Source: a virus
Direction: 5' to 3' (one strand)
Virus record (IMG/VR): IMGVR_UViG_3300042296_001256
Location: 1-62,356 of that record
Length of the DNA: 62,356 nt
A model generated the notes under the pieces. That model was not told the DNA's origin and did no database searches. It was given only the letters and a program-made list of their open reading frames with translations. The translations under genes and the position numbers were made by a program. Positions 5,281 to 62,356 of this stretch are shown in pieces; position 1 is the first letter of the stretch, and every line of letters begins with the position of its first letter.

Positions 5281-5287
5281 AAACATA

Positions 5288-6007: not shown

Positions 6008-6026
6008 GTTTACAGATATTAAAAAG

Positions 6027-6829: not shown

Positions 6830-6869
6830 TAGAGAATAAAAGGTTACATCGAAGACTTGCTAAACTTTC

Positions 6870-6884: not shown

Positions 6885-6902
6885 CAAATAATTTTATACA
6901 CT

Positions 6903-8045: not shown

Positions 8046-8063
8046 TCGGTTAATATAACTAAC

Positions 8064-8092
8064 AAAAAAGGACTCTTAAAGAGTCCTTTTTT
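8064..8092. terminator. Bidirectional rho-independent terminator
   Basis: AAAAAAGGACTCT-TAA-AGAGTCCTTTTTT forms a 7-bp stem with A and T tracts on either side. It separates the convergent adhesin gene and the membrane protein gene. Confidence 0.9.
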
Positions 8093-8333: not shown

Positions 8334-8391
8334 TTTTCAAAGAGTCAGTGATTGACTCTAGGAAATTAAAAGTAAATTTCAAGATTATTTA

Positions 8392-42679: not shown

Positions 42680-45412
42680 CTATACGAGAATTTTCTTAAG
42701 TTCAGCGATTACTTGTTCGCTAGTTATCAATTTAGAACACTCAAATTGGCGACTAGTTCCTTTATGATCAGGGCACCAATTCCAGTCTCCGGCATCAAGT
42801 CTCAAACGATTGGCACAGCCTGAGCATGCACCAGCCGGGGCAGCTAATTTAACAATTCCATTATCAGGTTCGTTGTAGGGTTCAGTAAATCCAGATACTT
42901 GAATGGTTGGGACGTTTGCTGCCCACGCTAACCAAGTTAAGCCGCTGCTTATTCCAATGAATGCTTGACACTCAGATATGTTTTTAACAGCCTCCTCGAT
43001 TGAACCTTCCGGTAACTTAGCGGCTCCGATTGGATGGCTATTTCCCATATATCCATCGTGTTCTCTTGACATAATGACTGGTTCATATCCATTTTGTAAT
43101 AACCAGTCAGTAACCTCCTGCCAGCCATTTGGATTGTTCCAATATTTGGCTTGAGCAGTTCCGTGAATTCCTAAACCTACTTTTTTAGTGACAGTAGATC
43201 GGTCGTATGTTTTAATTAAAGGCTTGATTTCAGTGTAGTCTAATCCTAAAATATCAGCAGCAGTTCTCTGTAATGGACCCAACTTAAAATCTCTAGGATT
43301 CATTGCTGAATCGAACACTTCGTTATTATTGTACCATCCGATTTTATACATTGCATAAAGGCCTGTTATACTGGAACCGGGTGCAACTAATTCGATTTCC
43401 GGATATTGCTCAGCAAATAAGTTATTCCAAAAAGTAGAGCAAACAACTTTACAATTATGTTTCTTTCTGAATTCTTCAACGTAAGGGAACCATGCTAAAT
43501 TATCACCTAGCGCCTTAGAGTCAAGTGAAATATAAACCTTCTTTCCAGCAATATTATAATTAATTTCTTCAATGACTTCGCTGTTCTGATCAAGTATTTG
43601 AATTTTCCAATCTTTAAAGTATTTAGAGTAGGTTTTTGCCCAAGTTTTATTACCTAGAGTAGTTAAAAATTCTTCTGAACCAGTTACATTATTTATGAAT
43701 TTAACTGGGTACTTAAAACTTGATGATGTTTCGATTTCAACATAGGCTCCATCCATAAAATTATAATAAACAGTTGGACTCTCTGCGTCTGAGAAAAGGG
43801 TTAATCGATTCATTACGATAAATTCAGATAGGTCGTTTTGTAAAAACTCAGAATAAACGCTCTTTCCTAAATAATTAACGGTTGCCGTTAATCCCTTTTG
43901 GTATTTACCTAGATCAACTAATGAGTAACCGTCTTTCTGTAAGGTTACGAATTTTACAAATTTACCGTATCTAACTTCCAGTAAATAGTCGCTATCTGCT
44001 TTTTCTTCGTGAAATCCTGAAATTAGGTGTAGGTATAAATTTCCATTATCACTCGCAGCTGGATAGATTTGGAATTTACCATCATCTCTTAAGATACCGT
44101 CTCTATTCCAAACAGCTTGAGTATTTAATTCGTTTGAGTTCGCAATATACTCGGTGTGACCTATGTTAGTTGTAAATTTTCTTAAGTATTCAAGAAATAC
44201 TCTCTCTAACTGCCAGCCCTTTGGCTTATTTGTAAAGTATTCGCGTTTTGTTTTTATTTGATCCATCATCTTAACGGCGATATCCGTCTTTATCGAAAAG
44301 ATGAAAGTTGCCATGAAAGGCGACAATTGAGTGTCTACACTTGAACCTTCGTGATATTCATAGATAATAGCATCATGCAATTTTGATTTTTCCAAGAAGG
44401 CTTGTCTGTATTGGAATGTATCGATTAGGTTATCGTATTCCATGAAGTGAATCATTTTCTTTCCTAGGAATTTACAGAAATTAAAAGCAATCGTCATTGA
44501 TGTCCATATTGCATAATCATGATGGTACGGCATTGCATTGTCAACTTGATAATCTGCAAATCTGGTCCATCTACCGCTTGATACTGAATGATCTTCAAAT
44601 TCTGAATTTAAAAGTAGTGGATTTTCTTTATCAAAGATATAGTAATCAACCAATTTTTGAATTTCAGGCTTTATTGCATAGTGAGATACTAATAGGATTG
44701 GGATACCTGCAAATTCTCTAAGTTTTGAAATACACTCAATTAGGTCCTGCTCTTTTTCTGGAGTATTAGGCCACGTGTCTAAAACAAAAATGTCATCCTT
44801 ATATTCTTCGGAAATAATAATGGATTCTGGAGTAGGCTTATTATAGAGTTGGTCATTCTTAATTCCGCCCTTTACTCCAAAGAAATAGAGATCTCCAGGA
44901 TGAGCTGTATATTCAAAGACTCCGTCTGGAAATGCTTGCTCAAAACCTTTAACTTCACGAATGGCCGCTTCAGTTAAATTCTTATAATAGTCAGACCATT
45001 CTTCTGAAATATTCGCAAGCAGTGGAGCGGCTGAACTGCCGTCTGATCTGCGAGTTCCGTGTTCAGGTCTACCAGTTGAAGCACATGTAAAAATGAATGC
45101 TCCTCCAGGTTTTAGCATTCGGATAATATTCTGTAGCGATTTCTCATAGAACATGTCGTGTTCAAATACTTCAGTTGAAATAATAAGATCAAACTGTTCG
45201 TTTGGTGCATCGTATAGATGAGCGACTTGAATAACGTCTACGTTTGGACCTTCACCTACATCTAATCCAATATAGTTACAATCGGTTAAGAAGAATCGGT
45301 TATTTCCATTAATATCAAGAGATCCGATATCTAGGACCTTTTTTCCAGTGAAATACTGCGGAAATACTTCACTCATTTTTTTACAAAATTCTTGCTGTTG
45401 AGGATGTGCCAT
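42680..45412 (-). CDS. Methyltransferase fused to an autotransporter-heptosyltransferase-like (TibC/AAH) glycosyltransferase, 910 aa
   Basis: Residues about 1-175 are a class I SAM methyltransferase: VLDIGSLDINGNNRFFLTD, LIISTEVFEHDMFY, MLKPGGAFIFTCAST. A long middle region (about 190-610) resembles GT-A-type enzymes plus a beta-rich stretch. The C-terminus (from about 620) is a GT-B domain (KKVYISLDSKALGDNLAWFP, GIHGTAQAKYWNNPNGWQEV, FIGISSGLTWLAWAANVPTI) followed by CSGCANRLRLDAGDWNWCPD and HKGTSRQFECSKLI. CxxC, CP and C match the iron-binding finger of bacterial autotransporter heptosyltransferases. Those enzymes glycosylate many Ser residues of adhesins. It lies in the fibre locus next to sugar methyltransferases and Gly-X-Y fibres. 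Confidence 0.85.
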   Translation of the reverse strand: MAHPQQQEFCKKMSEVFPQYFTGKKVLDIGSLDINGNNRFFLTDCNYIGLDVGEGPNVDVIQVAHLYDAPNEQFDLIISTEVFEHDMFYEKSLQNIIRMLKPGGAFIFTCASTGRPEHGTRRSDGSSAAPLLANISEEWSDYYKNLTEAAIREVKGFEQAFPDGVFEYTAHPGDLYFFGVKGGIKNDQLYNKPTPESIIISEEYKDDIFVLDTWPNTPEKEQDLIECISKLREFAGIPILLVSHYAIKPEIQKLVDYYIFDKENPLLLNSEFEDHSVSSGRWTRFADYQVDNAMPYHHDYAIWTSMTIAFNFCKFLGKKMIHFMEYDNLIDTFQYRQAFLEKSKLHDAIIYEYHEGSSVDTQLSPFMATFIFSIKTDIAVKMMDQIKTKREYFTNKPKGWQLERVFLEYLRKFTTNIGHTEYIANSNELNTQAVWNRDGILRDDGKFQIYPAASDNGNLYLHLISGFHEEKADSDYLLEVRYGKFVKFVTLQKDGYSLVDLGKYQKGLTATVNYLGKSVYSEFLQNDLSEFIVMNRLTLFSDAESPTVYYNFMDGAYVEIETSSSFKYPVKFINNVTGSEEFLTTLGNKTWAKTYSKYFKDWKIQILDQNSEVIEEINYNIAGKKVYISLDSKALGDNLAWFPYVEEFRKKHNCKVVCSTFWNNLFAEQYPEIELVAPGSSITGLYAMYKIGWYNNNEVFDSAMNPRDFKLGPLQRTAADILGLDYTEIKPLIKTYDRSTVTKKVGLGIHGTAQAKYWNNPNGWQEVTDWLLQNGYEPVIMSREHDGYMGNSHPIGAAKLPEGSIEEAVKNISECQAFIGISSGLTWLAWAANVPTIQVSGFTEPYNEPDNGIVKLAAPAGACSGCANRLRLDAGDWNWCPDHKGTSRQFECSKLITSEQVIAELKKILV

Positions 45413-45419
45413 TTGTTAA

Positions 45420-46085
45420 TTATCTTTTTGTTATAATAGTTATACCGTTTAGGAAATTTACAGATTCAATATCTGTTCTGATTTCCAAACCTTTTTCTTT
45501 TGTTTGTTTAGTTAGGAAGTCTTCTCTTCGTGCATGAACGTTCCAAAATTCTTCCTGCATTTGACCGTTAAAGTTAACATCGTCTACTAGCTTTTTGCAG
45601 AATTCAATTGACGAACCTGGATGCATAAAGCCGCCTTCCCAATCTTCCCAATACGAAGTTGAAGTATCTTCAATAACGTAGACTCCTTCAGGTTTTACGT
45701 AGTCAATTAGATTATTAAATGAGATAATTACATGTCGATTGATATGTGAACCGTCATCAAGTACCATATCAAATGGTCCCCATTTTTTAGCGACCCAATT
45801 TAAGAACTGAGGATCGTCTTGTGAACCTATTTCAACAAAAACATTTTTACTAGAGTCTTCGTATTGTTTACATGAAGGTTCAATATCAATTCCTATAATT
45901 GTTGCATTTGGATAGTATTCTCTCCAAGTCGAAAGAGATTCTCCGTGAAGAACTCCGATTTCAAGAATGGTTAAAGGTTCTAATCGATTGAACGGTAACC
46001 ATTTTTCGTACTTTTCACAGTAATTGTGAATTTCTGAAGATTTGTCTGTGCCTTTAGACTTGGCAATAGTATTTAGTGATCTCAT
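45420..46085 (-). CDS. CmcI/MycE-like sugar O-methyltransferase, 221 aa
   Basis: The N-terminal KSKGTDKSSEIHNYCEKYEK, then LTILEIGVLHGESLSTWREY (SAM motif I), TIIGIDIEPSCKQYEDSSKN, FDMVLDDGSHINRHVIISFN and YVIEDTSTSYWEDWEG follow the cephalosporin hydroxylase/rhamnosyl O-methyltransferase pattern with its metal-binding DD and ED. The likely acceptor is a sugar hydroxyl. It lies between the two giant glycosyltransferase genes and should belong to the same glycan pathway. Confidence 0.85.
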   Translation of the reverse strand: MRSLNTIAKSKGTDKSSEIHNYCEKYEKWLPFNRLEPLTILEIGVLHGESLSTWREYYPNATIIGIDIEPSCKQYEDSSKNVFVEIGSQDDPQFLNWVAKKWGPFDMVLDDGSHINRHVIISFNNLIDYVKPEGVYVIEDTSTSYWEDWEGGFMHPGSSIEFCKKLVDDVNFNGQMQEEFWNVHARREDFLTKQTKEKGLEIRTDIESVNFLNGITIITKR

Positions 46086-46098
46086 ATAAGAGTATGGG

Positions 46099-48885
46099 TT
46101 ATTTCCAAAAGTAGATTAATTGTAGTGCATTATTGTAGCCGCACATTAGCATGTAAGAATTAAAACCTAGTTTATTTAGTCGACTAACGAAATTGTTTCT
46201 AAGGTCTTCATTAAACCCTAAGTGTTCGTGATGGTACTCTACTGCGATATTTCTGATCTTTGATAAATTCTCATCGCTTATTCCATTTAGCGCAATAATT
46301 TCAGAGCCTTCAATATCTACCTTTAAAAAGTCAATTCGGTCGATTAATTTATTCTCCAGAATGAAATCTAAGGTATATAAGTTTACGTCGTATTGGGTCT
46401 GTAATGGATCTTTATGATGCCATAAGTTAGATCCCCCTAGGTGAGAACTTTCAGTAAGAGTTAAGGTTCCCAAGTTATCAGCAATTGCTGCATTAAATAG
46501 GACCGCATTTTCTGGAGCATTCTGTTTTAAGATTTCAAAGTATCGACGATCAGGCTCGAAAGTTACAATTTTACTTGCGCCCATGTGATATGCATATCGG
46601 GTAAAGATTCCAAGATTACCGCCCAAATCCACAACAACATCGCCGGGTCTAACCTTAACTTCTCCATGTTCGTAATCTTTTAGATTATAGATCTCATGAT
46701 AGATTGCGTAATCCCAACCGTATTGATGAGCAATATCCATTGTTCCTCCTGGTACATCTTTAATTGAGCCAAGATTTTTGATTTCATTTTTACCAACAAA
46801 GAAGTATTCAGTATCGTGGAAGTTTTTATCACGCTGAGTCTCGATATAGTCTGTCATAACCGTTGCGAATCCAAGATCTTTATTTCCATGAAAGTAGAGA
46901 ATATTTGATTTATCTTTAGGTACGAATTGCCAGCCGAATATTTTTCCAAAGTTCTTTGGGCCAGAGTCTCTCCAAAACGAGATAAAGTGTTCCATTGCTT
47001 TGCCAGTTGTTCCCAATAAGTCGCCGTCCCATTCTGAGACATCAAAGTTTGAAATTGGCAAAAATGTCGTAAAATTGTGTTTACTTCTCAAGTAATTATC
47101 GAGACCTTCATCGTTCCATTGTAGTAATTCGTCGTATTGGTCAAGCGGTGTTTCTTTGTACATTTTAAGAATCTCATCAAAGAACCAGGTACACTCTTTA
47201 TTGTAGACGTACATGCAAATATGAGCCTTTGTAAATAACCTCTTGACACCATCTCGGTCGCAGATACTTTGGTTAAATAATTGTCTTCCACGAAGTCCGT
47301 CTTTTCTGGTAAAGAAGCCAATAAAATCGTCCTGTATGTGAACGTCTGGAATTGGATAATTTGTAATCTGGCTAAAGTACTTAACGATATTGTCAATATT
47401 ATAATTTGCAACAATATCTCCGTCTAACCAAACTAAATTCTCGAAACTTTCTTGAATAGCTGCTTCTTTACACGCATACTGTTTCCAATACCATTTATCG
47501 TGTTCTGAATGATATGGAATACTTAATGTTCGGCTAATAACGTTTGGATGATTAAACGGAACTTCACAGTCTATTCCATATACGAGAATTTTACGATTTG
47601 AGAATTTAGCTAACGATATAACTAATTTCTCAATGATTGGCATGTATGCTAGATTACCACAGGTCACCCATGCAAAGTCAGTTGAGTATTCAATTGACTG
47701 CGGGCTAATAAGTTCCTGAATGTGATCTTGTGCGATCGTGGCAGCATTCTGCCAAGTAAATTCATTTCTAATTTGTTCTGATTCCATTAATGCTGATTTT
47801 TTATAATTTTCAAACTGGTCGTAAACTAGTCTAAGTTTTATTTGAAGATCTGAGAAATTAGGCTCACAGAAATTACCTGGAGTATTCTGATTCCAAGACT
47901 CCTCATTTGCTACACCTGCTGGAACTTCGCCAATAATTGAAACTGGAATACCCTTACCTTGAGCAAACTGCAGTTGTGCTCCCCAATTTGAGTACATTGA
48001 TGGAACTCCGCATGACATTGCCTCAATTAATGGAAGATTCCAGCCTTCACTTCTGGCACATGACACAAAAACGTCAGCCGACTTAAGTAGTTTTACGTAA
48101 TCTTCTTTTGACTGATGGTGTAGTACTTTAATTCCTGAATGAGAAAGCTCAAACTTAGCTAATCTCTCCTCAGTAGAAGAGAGGCCGTCCGTTGCAAATC
48201 GATTATCTACGCTAATGACAAGCTCAACATTCTCATCTTGTGAAAAGGTTTCAGTAAAAGCTCTGATAATTTCTTTGGTTGACTTACGATATTCCCAGCG
48301 ACCCACTACGACAAATCGGAAAGGCCTGTTCTCTGGAAAAGCCGAATCCGGTGAGGTCGGTTTAAACATCTCAGTGTCTACTCCCTCTGGTACAACTTTT
48401 ACTTTATGTGATGCGATTCCTTGCTCAATTGTGCACTGTTTTTGCCATTCACTAGGAACCCAAACTTGATCGAACTTTTTAAGTTGAGCAAAGAAGTCTT
48501 CAGGTTGTCTAGTTGTTTCCCATACATTGTATGCAATTGATGGACCTGAGTAATCTTGGCTAAAGTACAGGTGACCTGTGTCATTTAGCACAATATTAAC
48601 AGTTGGCTCAGTAGATTGAATTGGGTACTTCAAGTATAGAGGAAACTCCGCATGACCTGTTTGAGTACCTAACGTTTGTTCAGATAACATCGTCTTTAAC
48701 TCAGAGTCTATATAATACTCCCCATTGTGAGGCTCATCGTCATTGTAACCTTTCCATGAATCGCCGATCGTCCAATTTCTAACTGAAACTGGCGTTAATT
48801 GATTTAGAGCTTTAAAGAAATTTCGTGAATGGCAATTATATCCGGTATCGCCTATTATTGAAGTGTGAGCTTTGATTAGAGTCAT
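46099..48885 (-). CDS. Giant three-domain protein: two glycosyltransferases plus FkbM methyltransferase, 928 aa
   Basis: I chose ATG 48885 (MTLIKAHTSIIGDTGYNCHS). Residues about 1-400 are a GT4 glycosyltransferase: WVPSEWQKQCTIEQGI, FRFVVVGRWEYRKSTKEIIR, VFVSCARSEGWNLPLIEAMS (E..G...EAM). Residues about 400-640 form a GT-A-like domain with LVWLDGDIVANYNID (DxD-type motif). The C-terminus (about 730-928) is FkbM: VVVDLGGNLGIFTRYAYHMG, FLKVDIEGSEIIALNG, VEYHHEH. One polypeptide could add two sugars and methylate one. Starts upstream at 48975 add a hydrophobic peptide of doubtful reality. Confidence 0.88.
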   Translation of the reverse strand: MTLIKAHTSIIGDTGYNCHSRNFFKALNQLTPVSVRNWTIGDSWKGYNDDEPHNGEYYIDSELKTMLSEQTLGTQTGHAEFPLYLKYPIQSTEPTVNIVLNDTGHLYFSQDYSGPSIAYNVWETTRQPEDFFAQLKKFDQVWVPSEWQKQCTIEQGIASHKVKVVPEGVDTEMFKPTSPDSAFPENRPFRFVVVGRWEYRKSTKEIIRAFTETFSQDENVELVISVDNRFATDGLSSTEERLAKFELSHSGIKVLHHQSKEDYVKLLKSADVFVSCARSEGWNLPLIEAMSCGVPSMYSNWGAQLQFAQGKGIPVSIIGEVPAGVANEESWNQNTPGNFCEPNFSDLQIKLRLVYDQFENYKKSALMESEQIRNEFTWQNAATIAQDHIQELISPQSIEYSTDFAWVTCGNLAYMPIIEKLVISLAKFSNRKILVYGIDCEVPFNHPNVISRTLSIPYHSEHDKWYWKQYACKEAAIQESFENLVWLDGDIVANYNIDNIVKYFSQITNYPIPDVHIQDDFIGFFTRKDGLRGRQLFNQSICDRDGVKRLFTKAHICMYVYNKECTWFFDEILKMYKETPLDQYDELLQWNDEGLDNYLRSKHNFTTFLPISNFDVSEWDGDLLGTTGKAMEHFISFWRDSGPKNFGKIFGWQFVPKDKSNILYFHGNKDLGFATVMTDYIETQRDKNFHDTEYFFVGKNEIKNLGSIKDVPGGTMDIAHQYGWDYAIYHEIYNLKDYEHGEVKVRPGDVVVDLGGNLGIFTRYAYHMGASKIVTFEPDRRYFEILKQNAPENAVLFNAAIADNLGTLTLTESSHLGGSNLWHHKDPLQTQYDVNLYTLDFILENKLIDRIDFLKVDIEGSEIIALNGISDENLSKIRNIAVEYHHEHLGFNEDLRNNFVSRLNKLGFNSYMLMCGYNNALQLIYFWK

Positions 48886-48983
48886 TGACTTGATAATTGT
48901 TTCTATTTTATACTCGATTTTTATATTTTGTTTAGGTAAACCGTAAAAAATATTTAAGTATAAAAGTAAAAACACAAAGATAC

Positions 48984-49574
48984 GTGGAACGAAGATTAAT
49001 GTTTCCTCAAAAAGAGGTAGAATTATTGAACTGGTACTGGTTTAGCGAGGGCTTCTCAGCGGAAGAAATTGATAGAGTTCGCAAAGTATCAGAACTTTTT
49101 GAATATCATCAAGCTGTTACTTTTGGAAATCAAGGAGAAAACCATAAAATTAGAAAGAGCAAAATTAAATGGTTAGGCGAGAATAACGAATCGACTAAAT
49201 GGATTTATGATAAGTTGATGGAATTTGCAATAATTGCAAATCGAGAACTTTGGAATTTTGACCTAATATCAATAATTGACTCAATCCAGTACACTGAATA
49301 TTATGAAGGTGGTGGTCACTATGATTACCATGTAGATCTTGGACCAGGTTCAGCATCTCACCGGAAAATTAGTATTGTTGTACAATTAAGCGACCCTTCT
49401 GAATACGAAGGCGGCGATTTTGAAATACTTAAAGGAATAACTCCTGATAAATTGCCCCGAAATAAGGGAGCAACTATTTTATTCCCAAGTTACCTATTAC
49501 ATAGAGTAACTCCAGTAACCAAAGGAATTAGGCGAAGCCTAGTTATTTGGATAGGAGGAAATTCATTAAGATAA
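48984..49574 (+). CDS. 2OG-Fe(II) oxygenase, PKHD/prolyl-hydroxylase type, 196 aa
   Basis: The iron triad is H116 and D118 in HYDYHVDLG and H173 in YLLHRVTPV; the 2OG-binding Arg is R183 or R184 in GIRRSLVIW. YEGGDFEILKG is the PKHD-type strand that carries the GG turn. GTG 48984 or ATG 48999 (MFPQKEVELL) could be the start. It is encoded divergent to the giant glycosyltransferase gene and convergent with the fibre genes. A proline or other residue of the Gly-X-Y fibres is a reasonable target, but this is inference. Confidence 0.87.
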   Translation: MERRLMFPQKEVELLNWYWFSEGFSAEEIDRVRKVSELFEYHQAVTFGNQGENHKIRKSKIKWLGENNESTKWIYDKLMEFAIIANRELWNFDLISIIDSIQYTEYYEGGGHYDYHVDLGPGSASHRKISIVVQLSDPSEYEGGDFEILKGITPDKLPRNKGATILFPSYLLHRVTPVTKGIRRSLVIWIGGNSLR

Positions 49575-49580
49575 AGTTAC

Positions 49581-49606
49581 GGGAGAGTCAAAGACTCTCC
49601 CTTTTT
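49581..49606 (+). terminator. Rho-independent terminator
   Basis: GGGAGAGTC-AAA-GACTCTCCC-TTTTT: a 9-bp perfect stem and T5, just after the oxygenase gene. It also faces the end of the convergent 82-aa gene. Confidence 0.9.
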
Positions 49607-49607
49607 G

Positions 49608-49856
49608 TTACGCGGCAGTTAAGCCTAATGAAGTAAGAACTTTTCCAATTAGCACAGAGTCGTCTGTTCCCCAATCTGAAATACTTGTTAAGAGCCTGTC
49701 TCCGCTACAAATTGCAACCTCACTTGAATCAAGTATCTGAAACATAACTTTTACCGAAGTTGAATTCAATTTATAGTGTACAGAGAAGATGCTTAATGTT
49801 ACTCCAGTTTTTCCAAGAATAGTTATTGGGTTTATCGATATTGTAGTATTTTCCAT
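49608..49856 (-). CDS. Hypothetical small protein, 82 aa
   Basis: Beta-rich, soluble (MENTTISINPITILGKTGVT, then SVHYKLNSTSVKVMFQILDS). It follows the collagen-like gene by 27 nt and probably shares its transcript. It could be a fibre-associated cap, connector or assembly factor; no family is recognised. Confidence 0.55.
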   Translation of the reverse strand: MENTTISINPITILGKTGVTLSIFSVHYKLNSTSVKVMFQILDSSEVAICSGDRLLTSISDWGTDDSVLIGKVLTSLGLTAA

Positions 49857-49883
49857 TTTACTTTATTTTATTTTTAATACGTA

Positions 49884-52496
49884 TTACATTGGTATAACAT
49901 TAACAAGTAATCCGTTGACAAATTGCAACAGCATCATAGATCGACCATCAAAAACCATTATATCACCAGTATAGCCGCCTCCGCTGCCTCCGCCGCCTCC
50001 ATCCGCACCAGGAGGTCCGGGTGCTCCAGCAGGTCCAGTTCCTCCAGGAGTTCCAGCAGGTCCAGCAGGCCCGGCTGGACCAGTTAATCCGGTAGGTCCA
50101 GTTAATCCAGTAGGTCCTTGAATTCCTTGAGGACCTGGGGCACCAGCAGGACCAGTTCCTCCAGGTGAACCGTCTCTACCTGAAGTACCTGAAGAACCGG
50201 CTTCTCCCCTAGGCCCTTGAATTCCCTGAGGTCCAGTTGCTCCAGCTGGGCCAGTTAATCCAGTAGGGCCAGTTAATCCAGTAGGTCCAGTATTACCAAT
50301 TGGACCCTGAATTCCTTGAGGACCAGTAGCTCCAGTAGGACCAGTTATTCCACTTGTACCGGAAGAGCCTGCTTTTCCAGAAGTACCTGAGCTACCTGGT
50401 GCTCCAGCTAATCCAGTAGGTCCAGTTGCCCCAGCCGGGCCTTGAATTCCCTGAGGTCCAATTGGGCCAGTTAATCCAGTAGGTCCTTGAATTCCTTGAG
50501 GACCTGTTCCGCCAGGTGAACCGTCTCTACCGGAAGTACCAGAAGAACCATTTTCTCCCCTAGGGCCTTGAATTCCTTGAGGACCAGTTAATCCGGTAGG
50601 GCCGGTTAATCCAGTAGGTCCAGTATTACCAATTGGACCCTGAATTCCTTGAGGACCAGTAGCTCCAGTAGGACCAGTAGCACCGGTTGGACCAGTTATT
50701 CCGCTTGTTCCAGAAGTACCTCTTGTTCCAGAAGAACCTGAGCTACCTGATGCACCAGCAGGTCCGATTGGGCCGGTTGCTCCGGCTGGACCTTGAATTC
50801 CTTGAGGACCAGTAGCACCAGTTGGACCAGTTGCCCATGATCCATATCCTGAACCTGAATACCAAGTATGACCGGTTGGTATAGTAGTAAATCCAGGATT
50901 CCATTTTAGTGAGCTATTATCTCCGTTTGATGCACATATAAAGATCCATGTATCTGAGGGTCTTTGAGTGTCCGTATATGATTTAACTATTAAATAACTT
51001 GCGTTATAGGGACTAGCCATTCCCCTAGGAGGTGCATAGTATAGAGCAGACCATGTTCCAAGAGCAACTGTTTCTGGGCCAATATCGAAATGACCAGCTG
51101 TTCCGAAAGCTTTAGCGACAGGTATCGCAATTACTCTACCTGACCAAGTGACATTATTTCCGTCCCATGATACGTTACCTCCACCCGAGACAGTCCATGT
51201 TGCATTAACTGTGTCGTATTCAGTTGGGCCCTGAGGTCCAGTAGGTCCAAGAGGTCCAGTAGGTCCAAGAGGACCAATCGGACCAGTTGCTCCACTTGTA
51301 CCGGAAGTACCTCTTGTTCCAGAAGAACCTGAGCTACCTGGTGCTCCAGTTGGACCAAGAGGACCAGTTGCTCCAGCTGGACCTTGTATTCCTTGAGGAC
51401 CAGCAGGTCCGATTGGACCAGTTGCTCCACTTGTACCGGAAGTACCTCTTGTTCCAGAAGAACCTGAGCTACCTGGTGCTCCAGTTGGACCAAGAGGACC
51501 GGTAGGACCAAGAGGACCAGTTAATCCAGTTGGGCCAGTTTGACCGCTAGTTCCTGAAGAACCATTTGCTCCAGCTGGACCTTGGATTCCTTGAGGACCA
51601 GTAGGCCCAAGAGGTCCAGTAGCTCCAGCTGGACCTTGAATTCCTTGAGGACCGGTTGGACCGGTTATTCCACTTGTACCAGAAGTACCTCTTGTTCCAG
51701 AAGAACCTGAACTACCTGGTGCTCCAGTTGGGCCGATTGGGCCAGTAGCTCCAGTAGGACCAGTTGGTCCAGTTATTCCGCTTGTTCCAGAAGAACCATT
51801 TGAACCTGAAGTTCCAGAAGCACCTGACATACCGCTTGTTCCTGAAGAACCAGTAGGACCAGTCGCTCCAGTTGGACCAGTATTACCAATTGGACCTTGA
51901 ATACCCTGAGGGCCAGTTGGTCCAGTTATTCCACTAGTTCCAGAAGAACCGTTTGTTCCGGCTGGACCTTGAATACCCTGAGGACCGGTTGGTCCAGTTA
52001 TTCCACTTGTACCAGAAGTACCAGCAGTTCCTGAAGTACCTCTTGTTCCAGAAGAACCTGAGCTACCGGGTGCTCCAGTAGGTCCAGTTGCTCCAGTTGG
52101 ACCTTGAATTCCTTGAGGACCAGTTGGACCAGTTATTCCACTTGTACCAGAAGTACCAGCAGTTCCTGAAGTACCTCTTGTTCCAGAAGAACCTGACGAA
52201 CCGGATGTACCTGAAGTACCTCGTGTTCCGGAAGAACCTGAACTGCCGTTTGAGCCTGACGTTCCGCTTGTTCCAGAAGAACCTGCGGCTGACACCCAAG
52301 AGGTTCCATTAAACCTATAAATGTTTTTATCTGCTCGATTGTAGAGAATCGCGCCTTCCTTTGCATTAGCTCGACCTCTACTTATATTATCAACTAGAGT
52401 TAGAGCAAAACCGTTTACGCCGGAGGTTCCAGCGGTTCCGCTTGTACCTTCTCCAAATTCTACTCCGCCTGGTGCATTAATTTTATAACTACTCAT
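49884..52496 (-). CDS. Collagen-like fibre protein with [11 protein letters not shown] repeats, 870 aa
   Basis: Residues 1-75 form a small head domain ([47 protein letters not shown]). A Gly-X-Y array then runs to about 420, with [17 protein letters not shown] and [11 protein letters not shown]. About 425-540 is a globular island ([34 protein letters not shown]). A second Gly-X-Y array runs to about 835 with Pro-rich [10 protein letters not shown] and [10 protein letters not shown]. The C-terminus is [20 protein letters not shown] then LVNVIPM. Pro in X and Y positions makes it a true collagen-like fibre and a plausible hydroxylase substrate. Confidence 0.85.
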
Positions 52497-52510
52497 TTAT
52501 ATTCTATTTT

Positions 52511-55500
52511 TTATGGAAGCATTCCATTACTTATTATTTCATATCTAGCTGCTAATGTAATACGATTATTGGCATTATTGTTAATCTTTACAGCAAGATC
52601 AGTTCCACCGGCTCCGACTGTAATTGTGGCAGTCCATAGGGATGCATCTTGAGCAACAACAATTTCGGTGAAACCTGCACCTACTAGTGAAAGAGCACCG
52701 GCTATATTCTTAACCGCTCCAGTGTAGTGGCGATAATCAGTTGAACCGGTAACCTCTTCAGAACCTACTACGTATAATTCAATACCGTATATTCGATTAG
52801 GGGTTGGAAAGTCAAATAGGATAGGTGTACCTGGATCAATGAATAATTGACCAGCTGCCATGGGGTTAATCCGTCCAGAATAGAGTACTCCATTATGAAC
52901 TAATTTTTCGCGATCGTCAGATGCAGACTGTTTACCGTAAATGTATTCTTTAGGTCGACCGTCATATAGTGCAACTGGTCCTAATAGTAAAACATCATTA
53001 GTATCGTCTTCTCTAATATCGAAAGTTGAATCTTCAATAGTAGTCCCAGAAGCACCGTATGTTACGTATGTATTAAATGTACCGGACGTTGTGATTGACG
53101 TACCTGATGTTCCAGCTGAACCTGAAGTACCAGAAGTACCTCTTGTTCCAGAAGAACCTGAAGTACCTGAAGAACCTGTTCCACCAGGTGCACCAGTTGC
53201 TCCACTAGTTCCAGAAGTACCAGAAGTACCTCTTGTTCCAGAAGAACCAGACGAACCGGATGTTCCAGCCGTACCGCTTGAGCCGTTTGAACCAAATGTT
53301 ACAAACGAAATTGTATAGTTTATTCCATTCGTTAGTGTTCCATTTGCGGCGATTGGCGCAAGTCCAAGATCAAACCATGTTGTGTTATTGGTAATTGAAA
53401 TAAGTCTGTAAATACCTATTATGCTATTATTACCAACTTCGGTAATTTGAATTAAGCTATTAGAGGTTATTAATGATAACCAGGTTGCGTAGTTTACACT
53501 AGCAGAAGAAGTTGTAGATACGCTAAGTTTAGCTAGCGCAGCGAAGGTAGCACTATCTGTTCTAAAGAATGTTGCTCCAGGGTTAGAGTGTGCTGGTATA
53601 CTTGAATCAAATAACCATCTACCGCTATTTGAACCGTCAATACCGGCAATACCAGTCGCTCCGGATGTTCCGCTTGAGCCGTTTGAACCAGAAGTACCAG
53701 AAGTACCTCTTGTTCCAGAAGAACCAGAAGAACCATTTGAACCAGAAGTACCAGAAGAACCAGAAGAACCATTTGAACCAGAAGTACCAGAAGAACCAGA
53801 AGTACCAGAAGTACCTCTTGTTCCAGAAGAACCAGAAGAACCATTTGAACCAGAAGTACCAGAAGAGCCTGATGTACCAGACACTCCGTCTATACCGGAG
53901 GTTCCGCTTGAACCAGCTGATCCTGAAGTACCACTTGAGCCGTTTGAACCAGAAGTTCCAGAAGTACCGCTTGTGCCTCTTGTTCCAGAAGAACCTGAGC
54001 TACCATTTGAACCGGAAGTTCCGCTTGATCCATTTGAACCTGAAGTTCCTGATGTACCTGAAGAACCGTTTGAGCCGCTTGTTCCAGAAGAACCTGAGCT
54101 ACCATTTGAACCGCTTGTTCCACTTGATCCATTTGAACCAGATGTTCCAGACGTTCCAGAAGAACCGTTTGAACCGGATGTACCTGAACTTCCAGCTGAA
54201 CCTGATGTTCCAGAAGAACCGTTAGAACCGGAAGTACCTGATGTTCCACTTGAGCCGTTTGCACCAGAAGTACCTGATGTACCGCTTGATCCATTTGAAC
54301 CTGAAGTACCTGATGTACCACTAGTACCTCGTGTCCCAGACGAACCTGAGCTACCATTTGAACCGGATGTACCTGAAGAACCTGAAGTTCCGGATACTCC
54401 GTCTATACCAGAAGTTCCGCTTGAACCGGAAGTACCTGAAGTACCAGAAGTACCTCTTGTTCCAGAAGAACCAGAAGAACCATTTGAACCGGAAGTACCA
54501 GATGTACCTGAACTTCCATTAGAACCTGACGTACCTGAAGTACCTGAGCTACCATTAGAACCCGAAGTTCCACTTGATCCATTTGAACCAGAAGTACCAG
54601 ATGTTCCAGAAGAACCGTTAGAGCCGGATGTTCCGGAAGTTCCGCTTGATCCATTTGAACCAGATGTACCTGAAGTTCCACTTGAGCCGTTAGAACCAGA
54701 TGTTCCTGAAGTACCAGAAGTACCTCTTGTTCCAGAAGAACCTGAACTACCGTTTGAACCTGAAGTACCAGAGCTTCCATTCGAACCAGAAGTACCTGAA
54801 GAACCACTTGTACCACTTGAGCCGTTTGAACCTGACGTTCCAGAAGAACCATTTGAACCTGAAGTTCCCGAAGTTCCCGAAGAACCATTTGAACCTGAAG
54901 TTCCAGAAGAACCATTTGAACCTGATGTACCTGATGTGCCTGAAGAACCGGCTGTTCCAGAAGTACCGCTTGTACCGCTTGTACCTCTTGTTCCAGAAGA
55001 ACCTGAGCTACCATTTGAACCTGACGTACCGGAACTACCATTTGAACCGGAAGTACCTGACGAACCTGAAGTTCCTGATACTCCATCTATACCAGATGTT
55101 CCACTTGATCCGTTTGAACCTGACGTTCCAGATGTACCAGATGTTCCTGAAGTACCTCTTGTTCCAGAAGAACCGGAGCTACCGTTTGAGCCTGACGTAC
55201 CTGAACTTCCATTTGAACCTGAAGTTCCGCTTGTTCCAGAAGAACCATTTGAACCAGATGTTCCTGAAGTTCCAGAAGAACCATTTGAACCGGAAGTACC
55301 AGAGGTTCCACTTGATCCATTTGAACCGGAAGTACCAGAGGTTCCACTTGATCCATTTGAACCAGATGTACCTGATGTACCGCTTGTGCCTCTTGTTCCA
55401 GAAGAACCGGAGCTACCGTTTGAGCCTGAAGTACCTGAACTTCCATTTGAACCTGAAGTTCCGCTTGTACCTGAGCTACCATTAGAACCGCTTGTACCTG

Positions 55501-58500
55501 ATGTACCAGATGTACCAGAAGTACCTCGTGTTCCAGAAGAACCGCTTGATCCGTTAGAGCCTGATGTTCCAGAAGAACCTGATGTTCCAGATACTCCATC
55601 TATACCAGAAGTTCCAGAAGATCCATTAGAACCTGAAGTTCCAGAAGTACCGCTTGTTCCTCTTGTTCCAGAAGAACCACTTGAGCCGTTTGAACCTGAA
55701 GTACCACTTGAACCATTTGAACCTGAAGTCCCGCTTGAGCCGCTTGAACCGTTTGAACCTGATGTTCCAGATGTTCCACTTGATCCATTTGAACCTGATG
55801 TACCAGAGCTTCCATTAGAACCAGAAGTACCTGACGTACCTGAGCTACCGTTTGAACCTGAAGTACCTGACGTACCTGAGCTACCGTTTGAACCAGACGT
55901 ACCTGAGCTACCGTTTGAGCCGCTTGATCCTGAAGTACCAGAAGTACCTGATGCTCCAGATGCGCCGCTTGTTCCAGATGAACCGTTTGAACCGGAAGTA
56001 CCAGCTGTACCGCTTGTTCCAGAAGTTCCAGAGCTACCATTTGAACCTGATGTTCCTGAAGTGCCGGAAGAACCATTAGAACCTGAGGTTCCAGAAGAAC
56101 CGTTTGAACCTGAAGTTCCACTAGTTCCAGAAGAACCATTTGAACCGGAAGTACCAGCTGTACCTGAAGTACCACTAGTTCCTCTTGTTCCAGAAGAACC
56201 ACTTGAGCCGTTAGAACCACTTGAACCGGAAGTACCTGAGCTTCCATTTGAACCGGAAGTACCAGCAGAACCTGAAGTTCCTGATACTCCATCTATACCT
56301 GATGTTCCACTTGAACCTGACGTACCTGAGGTACCGCTTGTACCTGAAGTACCTCGTGTTCCAGAAGAACCTGAGCTACCATTTGAACCACTTGTTCCAG
56401 AAGAACCGTTTGAACCTGATGTTCCACTTGAGCCGGAAGTACCTGAAGAACCTGAAGTACCAGCTGTTCCGGAAGAACCGTTAGAACCAGATGTTCCGGA
56501 AGAACCATTTGAACCGGAAGTACCGGATGTTCCACTTGATCCGTTTGAACCTGAAGTACCACTTGATCCGTTTGAACCTGATGTTCCGCTTGTTCCTGAG
56601 CTACCGTTAGAACCAGAAGTCCCGCTTGTTCCTGAAGAACCGTTAGAACCAGAAGTCCCAGAAGATCCATTTGAACCGGACGTCCCGCTTGTTCCTGAAG
56701 TCCCGCTTGTACCGGATGTTCCTCTTGTTCCAGAAGAACCTGAGCTTCCATTTGAACCAGAAGTTCCACTTGAGCCGTTAGAACCTGATGTTCCAGCTGA
56801 ACCTGAGGTTCCGGATACACCGTCTATACCTGAAGTACCTGAAGAACCGGACGTTCCAGCTGTACCACTTGTTCCGGATGTACCTGAAGTACCTCTTGTT
56901 CCAGAAGAACCTGAGCTACCGTTAGAACCAGAAGTTCCCGAAGAACCGTTTGAACCAGAAGTACCTGATGTACCTGAGCTACCATTTGAACCAGACGTGC
57001 CAGATGAACCGTTTGAACCTGAAGTTCCAGAAGTACCTGAACTTCCATTAGAACCTGAAGTTCCACTAGTTCCAGAAGAACCATTAGAACCTGAAGTTCC
57101 ACTAGTTCCAGAAGAACCATTAGAACCAGAAGTACCTGAAGTACCGCTTGTACCTGAAGTACCTCTTGTTCCAGAAGAACCGCTTGAGCCGTTTGAACCA
57201 CTAGTTCCAGAAGAACCGTTTGAACCTGAAGAACCTGATGTACCAGAGCTACCATTTGATCCTGAAGTTCCGCTTGTTCCAGAAGTACCAGAGCTACCAT
57301 TTGAACCTGAAGTACCAGCTGAACCTGATGTTCCAGAAACACCGTCTATACCTGACGTTCCAGAGCTACCATTTGAGCCTGATGTACCTGATGTTCCAGA
57401 AGTACCTCTTGTTCCAGAAGAACCAGAAGAACCATTTGAACCAGAAGTTCCACTTGAGCCGGAAGTTCCTGAAGAACCTGAAGTTCCAGCGGTTCCAGAA
57501 GAACCGGAAGTACCGCTTGAGCCATTAGACCCAGAAGTTCCGCTTGTTCCAGAAGAACCTGAGCTTCCATTAGAACCAGATGTACCGGATGTACCAGTTG
57601 AACCTGATGTACCAGATGTTCCAGCAGTACCGCTTGAACCATTAGATCCAGAAGTTCCAGAAGAACCTGAAGTTCCAGACGAACCGTTTGATCCTGAAGT
57701 ACCTGAAGTACCCGAGCTACCGTTTGAACCGGAAGTTCCTGATGTTCCAGAGCTTCCATTAGAACCAGAAGTTCCAGAAGATCCATTAGAACCAGATGTA
57801 CCAGAAGTACCTGAAGAACCTGAAGAACCGGAAGTTCCGCTTGAACCGGATGTTCCTGACGTACCTGAACTTCCATTTGAACCAGAAGTCCCAGATGTTC
57901 CTGAAGAACCATTAGAACCCGATGTTCCTGAAGTACCTCTTGTTCCAGAAGAACCAGAAGAACCATTTGAACCAGAAGTTCCAGAAGTACCAGCAGAACC
58001 TGACGTTCCTGATACTCCATCTATACCTGATGTTCCGCTTGAACCTGAAGTACCTGAAGTACCTCTTGTTCCAGAAGAACCTGAAGAGCCATTTGAACCA
58101 GAAGTTCCAGAAGAACCGTTTGATCCTGAAGTACCTGAAGTACCTGAACTTCCATTTGAACCTGAAGTCCCAGATGTTCCGGAAGAACCGTTTGACCCGG
58201 AAGTTCCAGAAGTACCTGAGCTTCCATTTGAACCGGAAGTACCTGATGTTCCTGAAGTACCCGATGTTCCTGAGCTACCATTTGAACCTGATGTACCTGA
58301 AGTACCAGAGCTTCCGTTTGAACCAGAAGTTCCAGATGTTCCAGAAGAACCATTTGAACCGGACGTACCGCTTGTTCCAGAAGAACCATTTGAACCTGAT
58401 GTTCCGGATGTTCCAGAAGTACCTCTTGTTCCAGAAGAACCAGACGAACCGTTTGAACCAGAAGTTCCGGAGCTTCCATTTGATCCTGAAGTACCAGCTG

Positions 58501-61500
58501 AACCTGACGTTCCTGATACTCCATCTATACCGGAAGTTCCCGAGCTACCACTTGTACCTGAAGTACCGCTTGTTCCAGAAGTACCTCGTGTTCCAGAAGA
58601 ACCTGAACTTCCATTTGAACCGGAAGTTCCTGATGTGCCAGAGCTTCCATTAGAACCAGAAGTTCCAGAAGAACCGCTTGTACCACTTGATCCGTTTGAC
58701 CCTGAAGTTCCAGATGTTCCAGAAGAACCGTTTGAACCTGATGTACCTGAAGTTCCAGAAGATCCATTAGAACCAGATGTACCAGAAGATCCATTAGAAC
58801 CTGAGGTTCCAGAAGAACCTGAAGTACCGGATGTACCATTTGAACCATCTACTCCGCTTATACCTGAAGTACCAGAAGTACCTCGTGTTCCAGAAGAACC
58901 TGAGCTACCATTTGAACCACTTGTTCCAGAAGAACCGTTTGAACCTGAAGTTCCACTTGATCCGTTTGAACCTGAAGTTCCAGAAGAACCATTAGAGCCT
59001 GAAGTACCAGCAGAACCTGAAGTTCCAGATACTCCATCTATACCGGAAGTACCAGAAGAACCGGCTGTTCCGGAACTTCCATTTGATCCTGAAGTACCGC
59101 TTGAGCCGTTTGAACCAGAAGTACCTGACGTTCCTGAGCTGCCGTTTGAACCTGAAGTTCCAGCTGTTCCAGAAGAACCATTAGAACCGCTTGTCCCAGA
59201 AGTACCTGAGCTACCATTAGAACCAGATGTTCCACTTGAGCCGTTTGAACCAGAAGTACCGGCGGTTCCTGAGGTTCCAGACGTACCTGAAGTTCCTGAG
59301 GTTCCGCTTGTACCAGTCGATCCTGACGTTCCGGATGTTCCGCTTGTACCAGCAGTGCCTGATGAACCTGATGTTCCAGAAGAACTTGAAATTTGGCCAG
59401 TTGAGGTTAACACAAAAGAGTAATTTTGAGTTCCCTCAGTGTACCAAGTCACATCATGATTTCCACTAGACTGATCGACTACGTATATTTTAACAATCAT
59501 TCTATCCGTTGGATTAATAGTTGTTGTTGGTAGCACTACATCAACGTTAGCTTCAACTGGAATCGTTGAACTAATCCAACCTATAAGAACTTGATTAGTT
59601 GGTATTACTGTTCCATAACTAACACCTGCACTATTTGCTAATTCAATAGTAACAAATGTGTCTGTATTAAATCCTGCGCCGTCTTTTAAGAAATGTAAAT
59701 GGAATCTTTGTGTTCCTCCTGGTATTACAGAAAATCCTAATTCAGGAGTTATAAATTGTTGTACTAATACTGGAGTAGTACCTGTTGTAGTTTTAAGTAT
59801 TGATTGTTGAGCAGCGCCGGTCGGATTAATATTTAGGTCTCTATACGTACCTATTCCAGAAGCAACTGACTGATTAAAATAATAAATTTGACCTGCCGAT
59901 ATTCCAGTAGCTCCACTAGTTCCTGAAGAACCAGATGTTCCACTTGAACCGGAAGTTCCAGAAGTTCCGCTTGTTCCAGAAGTTCCTGACGAACCTGAAG
60001 TTCCAGAAGTTCCGCTTGTACCCGCCGTGCCGGATGAACCTGATGTTCCCGAAGTTCCACTTGAACCAGAAGTTCCAGTAGTTCCAGAAGAACCTGATGT
60101 TCCAGCCGTTCCGCTTGATCCATTTGAACCAGATGTTCCTGACGAACCAGAAGTACCTGAGCTACCGTCTGAACCTGAAGTTCCAGAAGAACCATTTGTT
60201 CCTGAGACTCCGTCTATTCCAGAAGTACCTGAAGAACCATCTGATCCTGACGTTCCAGAAGAACCATTTGAACCTGATGTACCAGATGTTCCTGACGAAC
60301 CATTAGAACCACTTGTTCCAGAAGTACCTGAGCTACCATTTGAACCGGAAGTCCCTGATGTTCCAGAAGAACCGTTAGAACCTGATGTTCCTGACGAACC
60401 AGAAGTACCTGAGCTACCGTCTGAACCCGATGTTCCAGAAGAACCGTTTGAACCTGAAGTACCAGATGAACCGTTAGAACCTGATGTTCCTGACGAACCA
60501 GAAGTACCTGAGCTACCGGCTGAACCTGACGTACCAGAAGAACCATTTGTTCCTGAGACTCCGTCTATTCCACTAGTACCTGAAGAACCATCTGAGCCTG
60601 AAGTTCCAGAAGAACCATTTGAACCTGATGTACCAGAGGTACCATTTGAACCTGAAGTTCCAGAAGAACCATTTGAACCAGAAGTACCTGATGTTCCAGA
60701 AGAACCGTTTGAACCTGAAGTACCAGTTGAACCAGAAGTACCGGATGTTCCTGAAGAACCGTCTGAACCTGAAGTTCCTGAAGAACCGTTTGAACCTGAT
60801 GTTCCAGAGCTACCATTTGAACCTGAAGTACCTGAAGTACCTGAGCTACCATCTGAGCCGGAAGTTCCGCTTGAGCCGTTTGTTCCTGAGACTCCATCTA
60901 TTCCAGAAGTTCCAGAAGAACCGTCTGAACCTGATGTACCGCTTGAGCCGTTAGAGCCTGAAGTACCAGATGTACCAGATGTTCCCGAAGAACCGTTAGA
61001 ACCTGAAGTACCTGAAGTTCCAGAAGAACCTGAAGTACCAGAGCTACCGTTTGAGCCTGAAGTACCTGAGCTACCGTCTGAGCCACTAGTACCAGAAGAA
61101 CCATTTGAACCAGATGTTCCTGAAGTACCAGAGCTACCATTTGAACCGGAGGTACCTGATGTTCCAGAAGAACCTGAAGTACCTGAGCTACCATCTGAAC
61201 CTGATGTTCCCGAAGAACCATTTGTTCCAGAAACTCCGTCTATTCCAGAAGTTCCAGAAGAACCGTCTGAACCGCTAGTACCGCTTGAGCCGTTTGAACC
61301 CGAAGTTCCAGAAGAACCGTTTGAACCTGAAGTTCCGCTTGTGCCGGAAGTTCCAGCTGAACCACTTGTTCCACTTGATCCGCTAGTACCCGAGCTACCA
61401 TTTGAGCCACTAGTACCTGAGCTACCATTTGAACCTGAAGTACCCGAAGTACCAGATGAACCAGAAGTACCGCTTGAGCCGTTTGAACCTGAAGTTCCTG

Positions 61501-62356
61501 AAGTACCTGAAGAACCGTTAGAACCAGAAGTACCTGAGCTACCGTCTGAACCTGACGTACCTGCTGAACCTGAAGTTCCTGATACACCATCTATTCCAGA
61601 AGTACCTGAAGAACCATCTGAACCTGAAGTTCCAGAAGAACCGTTTGAACCTGATGTACCGGATGTTCCAGAAGAACCGTTTGATCCTGAAGTTCCAGAA
61701 GAACCATCTGAACCTGACGTACCAGATGAACCATTTGTTCCTGAGACTCCATCTATTCCTGATGTACCTGAGCTACCGTCTGATCCTGAAGTACCTGAGG
61801 TACCATTTGAACCTGAAGTACCTGAGGTACCATTTGAACCGTTTGAACCTGAAGTTCCGTTTGAACCCGAAGTTCCAGAAGAACCATCTGAACCGGACGT
61901 ACCGGCAGAACCTGAAGTTCCTGATACTCCGTCTATTCCAGAAGTACCTGAGCTACCGTCTGATCCTGAAGTACCTGAGCTACCGTTTGATCCTGAAGTT
62001 CCAGAGCTACCATTTGAACCTGAAGTACCTGAGGTACCATTTGAACCTGAAGTACCGCTTGAGCCATCTGACCCTGAAGTTCCAGCCGAACCTGATGTTC
62101 CTGAGACTCCGTCTATTCCTGATGTTCCGGAAGATCCATTTGAACCAGAAGTTCCAGAAGAACCGTTTGAACCGGAAGTTCCAGAAGAACCATTTGAACC
62201 GGAAGTACCTGAGCTACCGTCTGAACCTGACGTACCTGCTGAACCTGAAGTTCCGGAAACTCCGTCTATTCCTGATGTTCCCGAAGAACCGTCTGACCCT
62301 GAAGTTCCAGAGCTACCATTTGAGCCTGATGTACCGCTTGAGCCGTTAGAACCTGA
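52511..62356 (-). CDS. Giant Gly-X-Y fibre protein, 5' partial, more than 3,281 aa
   Basis: The frame is open from the stop at 52511-52513 to the right edge of the window. GTG at 59536 is only an internal codon, because the upstream region reads on as coherent protein ([20 protein letters not shown]). Counted from the edge: residues 1-820 are Gly-X-Y repeats, 820-985 a beta-rich island ([20 protein letters not shown]), 985-2905 repeats, 2905-3025 an island ([20 protein letters not shown]), 3025-3085 repeats, and 3085-3281 a C-terminal domain ending [18 protein letters not shown]. The triplets are [15 protein letters not shown] and GID, almost without proline. At about 0.29 nm per residue, a triple helix of this length would be about 0.9 micrometre. 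It is probably a long adhesion fibre; the N-terminal virion-binding part lies outside the window. Confidence 0.85.
53100..62356 (-). repeat. Long Gly-X-Y coding repeat with a landmark unit near 171 bp
   Basis: The 9-nt (three-codon) triplet array covers most of this stretch, with islands at 53280-53640 and 59400-59900. A distinctive GIDGV(S) triplet pair recurs 19 times. Distances between neighbours are 513, 684, 513, 693, 531, 522, 675, 504 and 513 nt in the 3' block, then 351, 333, 342, 351, 162, 180, 180 and 153 nt in the 5' block. These are all near whole multiples of 171 nt (19 triplets) and all divisible by 9. Synonymous codons vary between copies. Confidence 0.85.

Follow-up and report, generated by a model that had tools for sequence, protein, structure and literature searches.

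A candidate phage-encoded system for glycosylating a serine/threonine-rich collagen-like fibre with a TibC/AAH-type enzyme

The virus record IMGVR_UViG_3300042296_001256 (62,356 bases; this whole stretch is referred to as the window) encodes a 910-amino-acid (aa) protein with a C-terminal TibC/AAH-type (BAHT) domain and a giant fibre with long Gly-X-Y arrays of the G-[ST]-S kind. Judged from sequence and predicted structure, the phage probably encodes its own fibre glycosylation system, in which a branch of the BAHT family would act on the phage's own G-[ST]-S fibre. This reading is based on the enzyme family, the catalytic and iron-finger residues, the fibre, the gene order among near relatives, the co-occurrence of enzyme and repeat, and the fusion or adjacency of BAHT domains with glycosyltransferase family 4 (GT4) domains. 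An earlier note, made from the letters of the locus, had proposed that a phage BAHT enzyme glycosylates its own Ser-rich fibre with the help of a prolyl-hydroxylase-like oxygenase; its observations were partly confirmed and its interpretation was partly supported. The BAHT-fibre link is well supported by co-occurrence in phages, by an echo of the pairing in bacteria, and by HldE-like genes in 14/40 representative BAHT loci, and the hydroxylase step is not supported.

The methyltransferase-TibC/AAH fusion that had been described was confirmed: aa 546-908 of the 910-aa protein scored 270.7 bits against TIGR04414 (curated cut-off, 200), and the N-terminus matched PF13489 at aa 1-109 and phrog_32762 at aa 1-181. 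The best PDB sequence match of the BAHT domain was TibC (E 8.5e-55), and among the matches listed, the PDB relatives at an E of 0.01 or better were two TibC entries and nothing else. A model of aa 545-910 superposed on TibC 21-388 with a Z of 36.4 and a root mean square deviation of 2.5 over 355 aligned residues, a predicted match covering the N-terminal beta-barrel and the GT-B catalytic domain; in the same comparison, a Veillonella GT9 enzyme gave a Z of 20.2, and WaaC and WaaF gave about 18. The mean predicted local distance difference test score of the 910-aa model was 73.7, with the iron-finger stretch below 50. A reading of the GT9 match as a lipopolysaccharide (LPS) heptosyltransferase was rejected, the score against TIGR02193 being 28.3 bits (cut-off, 185) versus 270.7 bits against TIGR04414. 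Between the two terminal domains, aa 181-545 had no family match and was barely covered by fold matches; a homologue of this region was present in 11/40 representative BAHT loci. By its profile and fold matches, the C-terminal domain is a true BAHT domain with predicted enzyme activity.

The TibC residues D110, T226, K230, and W305 (numbered after PMC4358343) correspond to D637, T752, K756, and W827 in the window, all of them kept. Among phage sequences thinned at 90% identity from 116 to 75, D110, K230, and W305 were kept in 75/75, and T226 was Thr or Ser (70/5). The iron-finger cysteines are C863, C866, C880, and C892, each a Cys in 74/75 phage sequences. According to PMC4358343, the TibC iron finger serves assembly and substrate recognition, and the TibC ring modifies a beta-helical partner, with processivity proposed. 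An enzyme of this kind would be well suited to an acceptor that repeats every three residues and offers Ser or Thr in almost every triplet. The same paper describes R286 as needed for TibC activity. This position is Ala-808 in the window; Arg was found there in 9/75 phage sequences, lost in 66/75, and kept in 68/80 bacterial sequences, these 80 being the best of 388 relatives in genome contigs. As a variant site within the BAHT family, R286 weakens the claim about the donor and leaves family membership intact. At the chosen cut-offs, 17 positions separated 93 phage-side sequences from 62 others, including one iron-finger position that was Trp in 93/93 of the former and Phe in 95% of the latter. 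In a tree of the 75 phage sequences and 36 of the 80 bacterial sequences, 18 bacterial sequences formed a group apart from the mostly-phage part, and phage sequences without R286 accounted for 11 label changes versus a shuffled mean of 35.2.

Both Gly-X-Y fibres of the earlier note, one of them rich in Ser and Thr, were found, the giant one being cut by the window end. Its visible part is 3281 aa, open at the edge; the full length is 3730 aa in a near-identical 271-kb genome (G001, 80333-91525). The window part contains uninterrupted Gly-X-Y runs of 1917 and 819 aa, has 1155 Ser, 979 Gly, and 506 Thr residues, and matched Pfam Collagen (PF01391) with 1200.9 bits. GTS (395), GSS (249), and GSN (158) were the most frequent of its 934 triplets. 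In G001, the two main arrays comprise 353 + 639 = 992 triplets with 1177 Ser and 477 Thr (1654 Ser/Thr) and neither Pro nor Lys. The giant fibre has four Pro-Gly pairs, one of which (GAP) lies inside a Gly-X-Y run, the short one; the 870-aa fibre has 13, and its triplets mix GPT and GPQ with GTS and GSS. No TIGR04415 match was obtained in either fibre, and collagen-like models matched both. The PHROG matches of the N-terminal 210 aa of the giant fibre were all to families of unknown function; a tail-fibre identity is suggested by its place among large structural-type genes.

The position of Thr sets these repeats apart. Thr in X versus Y numbered 2322 versus 124 in 25 BAHT-positive array loci, 2005 versus 151 in 30 BAHT-negative array loci, and 39 versus 388 in 29 Pro-rich phage loci. 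With Thr mostly in X, G-[ST]-S represents its own repeat class and not a collagen with its prolines exchanged; the likeness of BAHT-negative to BAHT-positive arrays indicates that the triplet spectrum is independent of enzyme detection. A Gly-X-Y sequence without proline is expected to form a weak triple helix, and thus sugar may hold the rod extended, or the rod may not be a collagen helix.

The window breaks off within the giant fibre, and several of the related contigs L009-L018, L021-L023, and L027 stop within an array. Gly-X-Y repeats probably break assemblies, and for this reason a missing fibre or enzyme in a short record is weak evidence. The GSSGTSG DNA pattern was counted 85, 79, 86, 87, 87, and 87 times in six contigs encoding a 100% identical 910-aa protein (G001-G006), differences that hint at change in fibre sequence or copy number. 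The antisense of such arrays can remain open, as in a frame of 1816 aa at window positions 53973-59423 (+), which makes them a trap for gene callers.

Co-occurrence in other phages of BAHT-like domains and GSSGTSG fibres, for which the earlier note had suggested a survey, was borne out. Two sets of contigs of at least 20 kb with at least 20 triplets in the locus were sampled among the pattern matches listed: set A with Ser/Thr-rich, Pro-poor arrays (S+T at least 0.40, P below 0.06) and set B with Pro-rich arrays (P at least 0.04, S+T below 0.30). A BAHT domain was present in 25/55 of set A (23/50 + 2/5; one below the family cut-off), 1/29 of set B, and 0/33 GPQGPQG contigs without a long array (Fisher test, p=4e-5 for set A versus set B and p=2.7e-9 for set A versus set B plus the GPQGPQG contigs). 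Contig L088, with both patterns, was kept separate and was BAHT-positive; L171, L218, L252, and L301, also kept separate, gave 0/4. The scan left aside 11 pattern contigs of at least 20 kb that had no array of this kind, together with the GPQ contig L233. The BAHT share rose to 13/18 in set A versus 0/17 among contigs of at least 60 kb (p=7e-6) and to 8/9 versus 0/4 among those of at least 90 kb, a trend that would arise if contig breakage explains many of the misses. Of the window's 14 terminase relatives, 8 had a BAHT domain (one under the cut-off); the array pattern occurred in 6/8 of these versus 0/6 of those without BAHT, which may be truncated. Array and BAHT gene were on the same strand in 19/25 records (p=0.015) and, among 18 near-relative loci examined, in 14/14 with a Pro-free array. 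In eight contigs of at least 90 kb, the array lay closer to the BAHT gene than by random placement (p=0.006), although array spans are approximate, since they were derived from the positions of listed pattern matches or from entire loci.

The strongest evidence came from bacterial chromosomes, where a shared phage lineage hardly accounts for the pairing. A GTSG array of at least five units lay within 4 kb of the BAHT gene in 13/18 of the loci closest to the phage sequences (L450-L466, L470) versus 0/62 of the others (p=2.7e-11). This evidence is weakened by the post hoc 18/62 split, the 18 loci having been chosen after identity and tree had been seen, and by L450 and L451, which may be phage contigs in bins; L463 stands at the tree base. 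A crude pattern picked out numerous strand-loop-strand-like motifs at 23 of the 62 other loci, the remaining 39 having neither repeat; all three large neighbours scanned from these loci matched TIGR04415, the known BAHT target repeat. In Methylococcaceae, the repeat gene was directly upstream of the BAHT gene in L454, L456, and L461 and directly downstream, on the other strand, in L459, and all four repeat proteins matched Collagen.

Among 50,697 phage records searched with three BAHT queries, the BAHT part turned up in four. One is Microcystis phage Mel-JY01 (host, Microcystis elabens); a pair of metagenomic records share a length of 735 kb, and the fourth measures 636 kb. In Mel-JY01 (L447, PP395634.1), 149 G-[ST]-S triplets form an array at 836-2176 (+). 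After a gap of 2.6 kb comes a GT4-BAHT fusion (4750-8430) that is annotated as "methyltransferase FkbM," and as an isolate the phage makes fibre glycosylation testable now. The array frame is open on the plus strand, and the record annotates the other strand there (739-2298, -). In a 735-kb record, short arrays were found 5-6 kb from the BAHT part on the other strand; in the 636-kb record, no array of at least eight triplets lay within 20 kb of it.

GT4 domains accompany BAHT domains closely. With a GT4 profile built from eight of these proteins, GT4 was found in the same open reading frame (ORF) as BAHT in 36/74 representative BAHT ORFs, in 37/40 loci, and directly upstream in 22/24 stand-alone cases. 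In group-2 phages (L060), genes for an adenylyltransferase and a kinase lie directly behind the BAHT gene, with HldE domains II and I as best matches (103 and 102 bits); these scores are under the TIGR02199/TIGR02198 cut-offs (181.5 for the adenylyltransferase and 345 for the kinase), and the genes are HldE-like only. Their position speaks for an ADP-heptose-like donor in group-2 phages, even with Val at R286. Upstream of BAHT in L042 (3727-7079) are a 440-aa ORF of 42% Ser+Thr and a radical-SAM-like protein of 675 aa, the latter possibly a further modification step. Behind BAHT in two different phages, L054 (11536-15165) and L447 (11243-13162), lie genes whose products carry a cytidylyltransferase-like domain (PF01467) at the N-terminus.

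The remaining enzymes of the locus agreed in part with what had been described. The 221-aa protein matched Methyltransf_24 (28.6 bits; cut-off, 26.3), which upheld the methyltransferase, and it may act on a sugar, as had been proposed. Of the two glycosyltransferases and FkbM domain attributed to the 958-aa protein, one GT4 domain and the FkbM domain were recovered, but a second glycosyltransferase was not found, the middle of the protein having no Pfam match and no PDB sequence relative at an E below 1. The whole model of this protein was of low confidence, and its 50 listed fold matches fit the GT-B part; its true start may be a later ATG (MTLIKAHTS). The oxygenase belongs to the 2-oxoglutarate (2OG) oxygenase family PF13640. 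Its nearest solved relatives are PKHD-type PiuC proteins (E 4e-10), and its match to the transmembrane prolyl 4-hydroxylase had an E of 0.6. A homologue was found in 5/40 BAHT loci, and the gene lies on the strand opposite to the fibre genes. A prolyl hydroxylase as a core step was rejected on the PKHD/PiuC type, the opposite strand, and the few X-Pro-Gly sites in the giant fibre, and this substrate-site argument applies to the giant fibre and not to the 870-aa fibre with its 13 Pro-Gly pairs. The 82-aa protein had no family match in profile scans of the window proteins.

The transcription order is giant fibre, 870-aa fibre, and 82-aa protein and then, past the 2OG oxygenase gene, the 958-aa GT4/FkbM protein, the 221-aa methyltransferase, and the 910-aa methyltransferase/BAHT protein. 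The run of 958-like, 221-like, and 910-like genes recurs in L009, L021, L022, L024, L025, L027, and L030; Gly-X-Y arrays precede it in L009, L021, L022, L025, and L027, and in L030, a tail-fibre-like protein follows it.

Taken as a pathway, these genes could work as follows. Within the host cell during infection, the BAHT domain would attach one sugar, taken from ADP-heptose or another, related ADP-sugar, to many of the Ser and Thr hydroxyls in freshly synthesized G-[ST]-S repeats. GT4, in the 958-aa protein, would next extend the glycan, and three methyltransferase domains (FkbM, Methyltransf_24, and the N-terminal domain of the 910-aa protein) would methylate it. The virion would thus bear a fibre of great length that is poor in proline and densely glycosylated, and the benefit of this fibre might be protection, stiffening, or binding.

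Features of the locus in the window and its immediate genomic context
Feature	Position	Strand	Basis
T4 gp15-like tail sheath stabiliser (genomic context)	41309..42055	+	family match
Tail-tube-like protein (genomic context)	42052..42669	-	phrog_45
910-aa methyltransferase + TibC/AAH-type fusion	42680-45412	-	PF13489, phrog_32762, TIGR04414
BAHT (TibC/AAH-type) domain, aa 546-908 of the 910-aa protein; proposed first-sugar transferase	42689..43777	-	
Middle region of the 910-aa protein, aa 181-545	43778..44872	-	without family match
N-terminal S-adenosylmethionine (SAM) methyltransferase domain, aa 1-180 of the 910-aa protein	44873..45412	-	
Class I methyltransferase, 221 aa	45420..46085	-	Methyltransf_24
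958-aa protein: GT4 aa 215-330, FkbM methyltransferase aa 791-938	46099..48975	-	
2OG-Fe(II) oxygenase, PKHD/PiuC type; probably outside the pathway	48984..49574	+	
82-aa protein between enzymes and fibres	49608..49856	-	without family match
Second collagen-like fibre, 870 aa; possible second acceptor	49884..52496	-	
Giant Ser/Thr-rich, Pro-poor Gly-X-Y fibre; proposed acceptor; open at window edge	52511..62356	-	

The 910-aa protein was found at 100% identity in contigs of up to 271 kb, and G001, covered in 14 stretches, differs from the window at 47 of 62,356 bases. The surroundings of the locus are T4-like, with a terminase, a gp15-like sheath stabiliser, and tail-tube-like and baseplate-wedge proteins. 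Elsewhere in the window, a phage transfer-messenger RNA with a tag peptide lies at 37797-38163 (+), detected with ARAGORN and Rfam RF00023 (129.1 bits), and two structural-type proteins with the common PHROG families phrog_24074 and phrog_8510 are encoded at 38258-39889 and 40004-40984 (+), the second of which matches Laminin_G_3 (ConA-like lectin).

Several results weigh against glycosylation of the G-[ST]-S fibre by the BAHT enzyme, or against parts of that proposal. No BAHT domain was found in 30/55 array records, one of them 148 kb long, and the strict array pattern was missing in 21/47 BAHT records, three of them longer than 100 kb, one with its BAHT gene near its end; neither partner thus requires the other within one contig. 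Array and BAHT gene were on opposite strands in 6/25 records, and over all 25, they were no closer than by random placement (p=0.32), so that tight clustering was not obtained as a general proof. The lone BAHT-positive Pro-rich record had no strict (G-[ST]-[ST])3 match. The known acceptors of TibC and AAH are strand-loop-strand beta-helices of the TIGR04415 type, whereas the phage candidate is Gly-X-Y. As to the donor, the loss of R286 implies that it may not be heptose, and this change is clustered on the tree but does not form one clean clade. Among the 309 ORFs of G001, Escherichia coli K-12 HldE, GmhA, WaaC, and WaaF had no match at an E of 1 or less, HldD retrieved one epimerase-like ORF only, and GmhB retrieved none; with HldE, GmhA, and GmhB all unmatched, the window lineage would use a host-supplied donor or another sugar.

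Three other explanations were considered. The enzymes might alter the host surface polysaccharide (O-chain or core), for example, blocking other phages, with the fibres adjacent because the region is a host-recognition island. GT4, FkbM, and HldE-like genes are also typical of LPS pathways, and the BAHT domain shares the GT9-type fold with WaaC and WaaF; in PMC7029224, pelagimyophage glycosyltransferases and rfaE, many of them in the tail-fibre island, are read as modifying the host O-chain. This explanation is nonetheless unlikely given the score for TIGR04414 over that for LPS heptosyltransferase I and an iron finger kept in 74/75 sequences, and it predicts neither the association with Pro-poor versus Pro-rich arrays nor the GTSG neighbours of bacterial BAHT genes.

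A different virion protein might instead be glycosylated, for example, one from the baseplate or one of the Laminin-G/ConA-like or Peptidase_S74 type; the G-[ST]-S fibre would then simply be something that these large phages often carry as well. The giant proteins next to BAHT and GT4 in group-2 phages (about 1900-2500 aa) contain few G-[ST]-S units, the one such neighbour scanned in Pfam ends in Peptidase_S74, and the strict array pattern is missing from three BAHT records longer than 100 kb. This too seems improbable, since the bacterial BAHT-GTSG pairing is hard to derive from a shared phage lineage and the association holds inside the terminase lineage, where the BAHT-less records may be truncated. 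That the oxygenase supplies the key step, hydroxylating Pro or Lys in collagen fashion with the modified residue then glycosylated, as happens in animal collagen or Mimivirus, is very improbable: its gene sits between enzymes and fibres, and Mel-JY01 has a gene annotated as prolyl 4-hydroxylase about 140 kb away in the linear record, but the 992 main-array triplets contain no Pro or Lys to hydroxylate, and the PKHD/PiuC type, strand, and rarity of the homologue in BAHT loci speak against it. What had been called a prolyl-hydroxylase-like oxygenase stands as a 2OG oxygenase, probably without the pathway role.

The best reading remains that the G-[ST]-S repeat is a new acceptor class for BAHT enzymes in phages. 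A wider proposal, for and against which the balance seems about even, is that, alongside its autotransporter branch, the BAHT family includes another one, found mostly in viruses, marked by W877 and usually lacking R286, that acts on the G-[ST]-S collagen-like repeat. Phages would thereby build mucin-like fibres, some with their own HldE-like donor genes; methylotrophic and other bacteria would modify small, secreted-looking GTSG proteins; and dense O-glycosylation might replace proline and hydroxyproline in keeping the rod extended. If fibre glycosylation by the phage's own BAHT enzyme is true, phages own an autonomous pathway for decorating their longest fibres with sugar, which matters for their encounters with host surfaces, proteases, and rival phages. 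Such a pathway would also add a second acceptor class to an enzyme family known from adhesin glycosylation, suggest an explanation for the proline-free Gly-X-Y proteins in many viral contigs, and question the reading of tail-fibre-island glycosyltransferases as host O-antigen modifiers.

Known systems resemble the proposed one in different respects. Mimivirus encodes enzymes that modify its own collagen-like proteins by lysine hydroxylation and glucosylation; in contrast, the main arrays here have neither Pro nor Lys, and the enzyme class is different. In BclA and other bacterial collagen-like proteins, Thr of Gly-X-Y carries O-linked, partly O-methylated sugars, but that Thr is in Y (GPT), whereas in window-type arrays it is in X. 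Virion glycosylation in mycobacteriophages has, to our knowledge, no BAHT link, and long Gly-X-Y arrays are not its sites. It is nevertheless a case of virions carrying sugar on their own proteins, the glycans (Freeman et al. 2023) being placed at the C-termini of capsid and tail-tube proteins in PMC12619734. The host-recognition cluster of pelagimyophages, which are likewise T4-like aquatic phages, has glycosyltransferases beside tail-fibre genes as well as rfaE, and BAHT is not named in the available portion of that paper (PMC7029224). Among the matches listed, the openly licensed literature, in its available excerpts, does not describe a phage TibC/BAHT enzyme or a BAHT-fibre pairing. The closest parallels are TibC/TibA and AAH/AIDA-I. 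Phage BAHT domains differ in the replacement of R286 in 66/75 sequences, in an iron-finger Trp where 95% of the 62 other sequences have Phe, and in being phage encoded and often fused to GT4; with these systems, the window shares the TIGR04414 family, the fold, the catalytic base, the iron finger, and the pairing of the enzyme with a large Ser-rich repeat protein.

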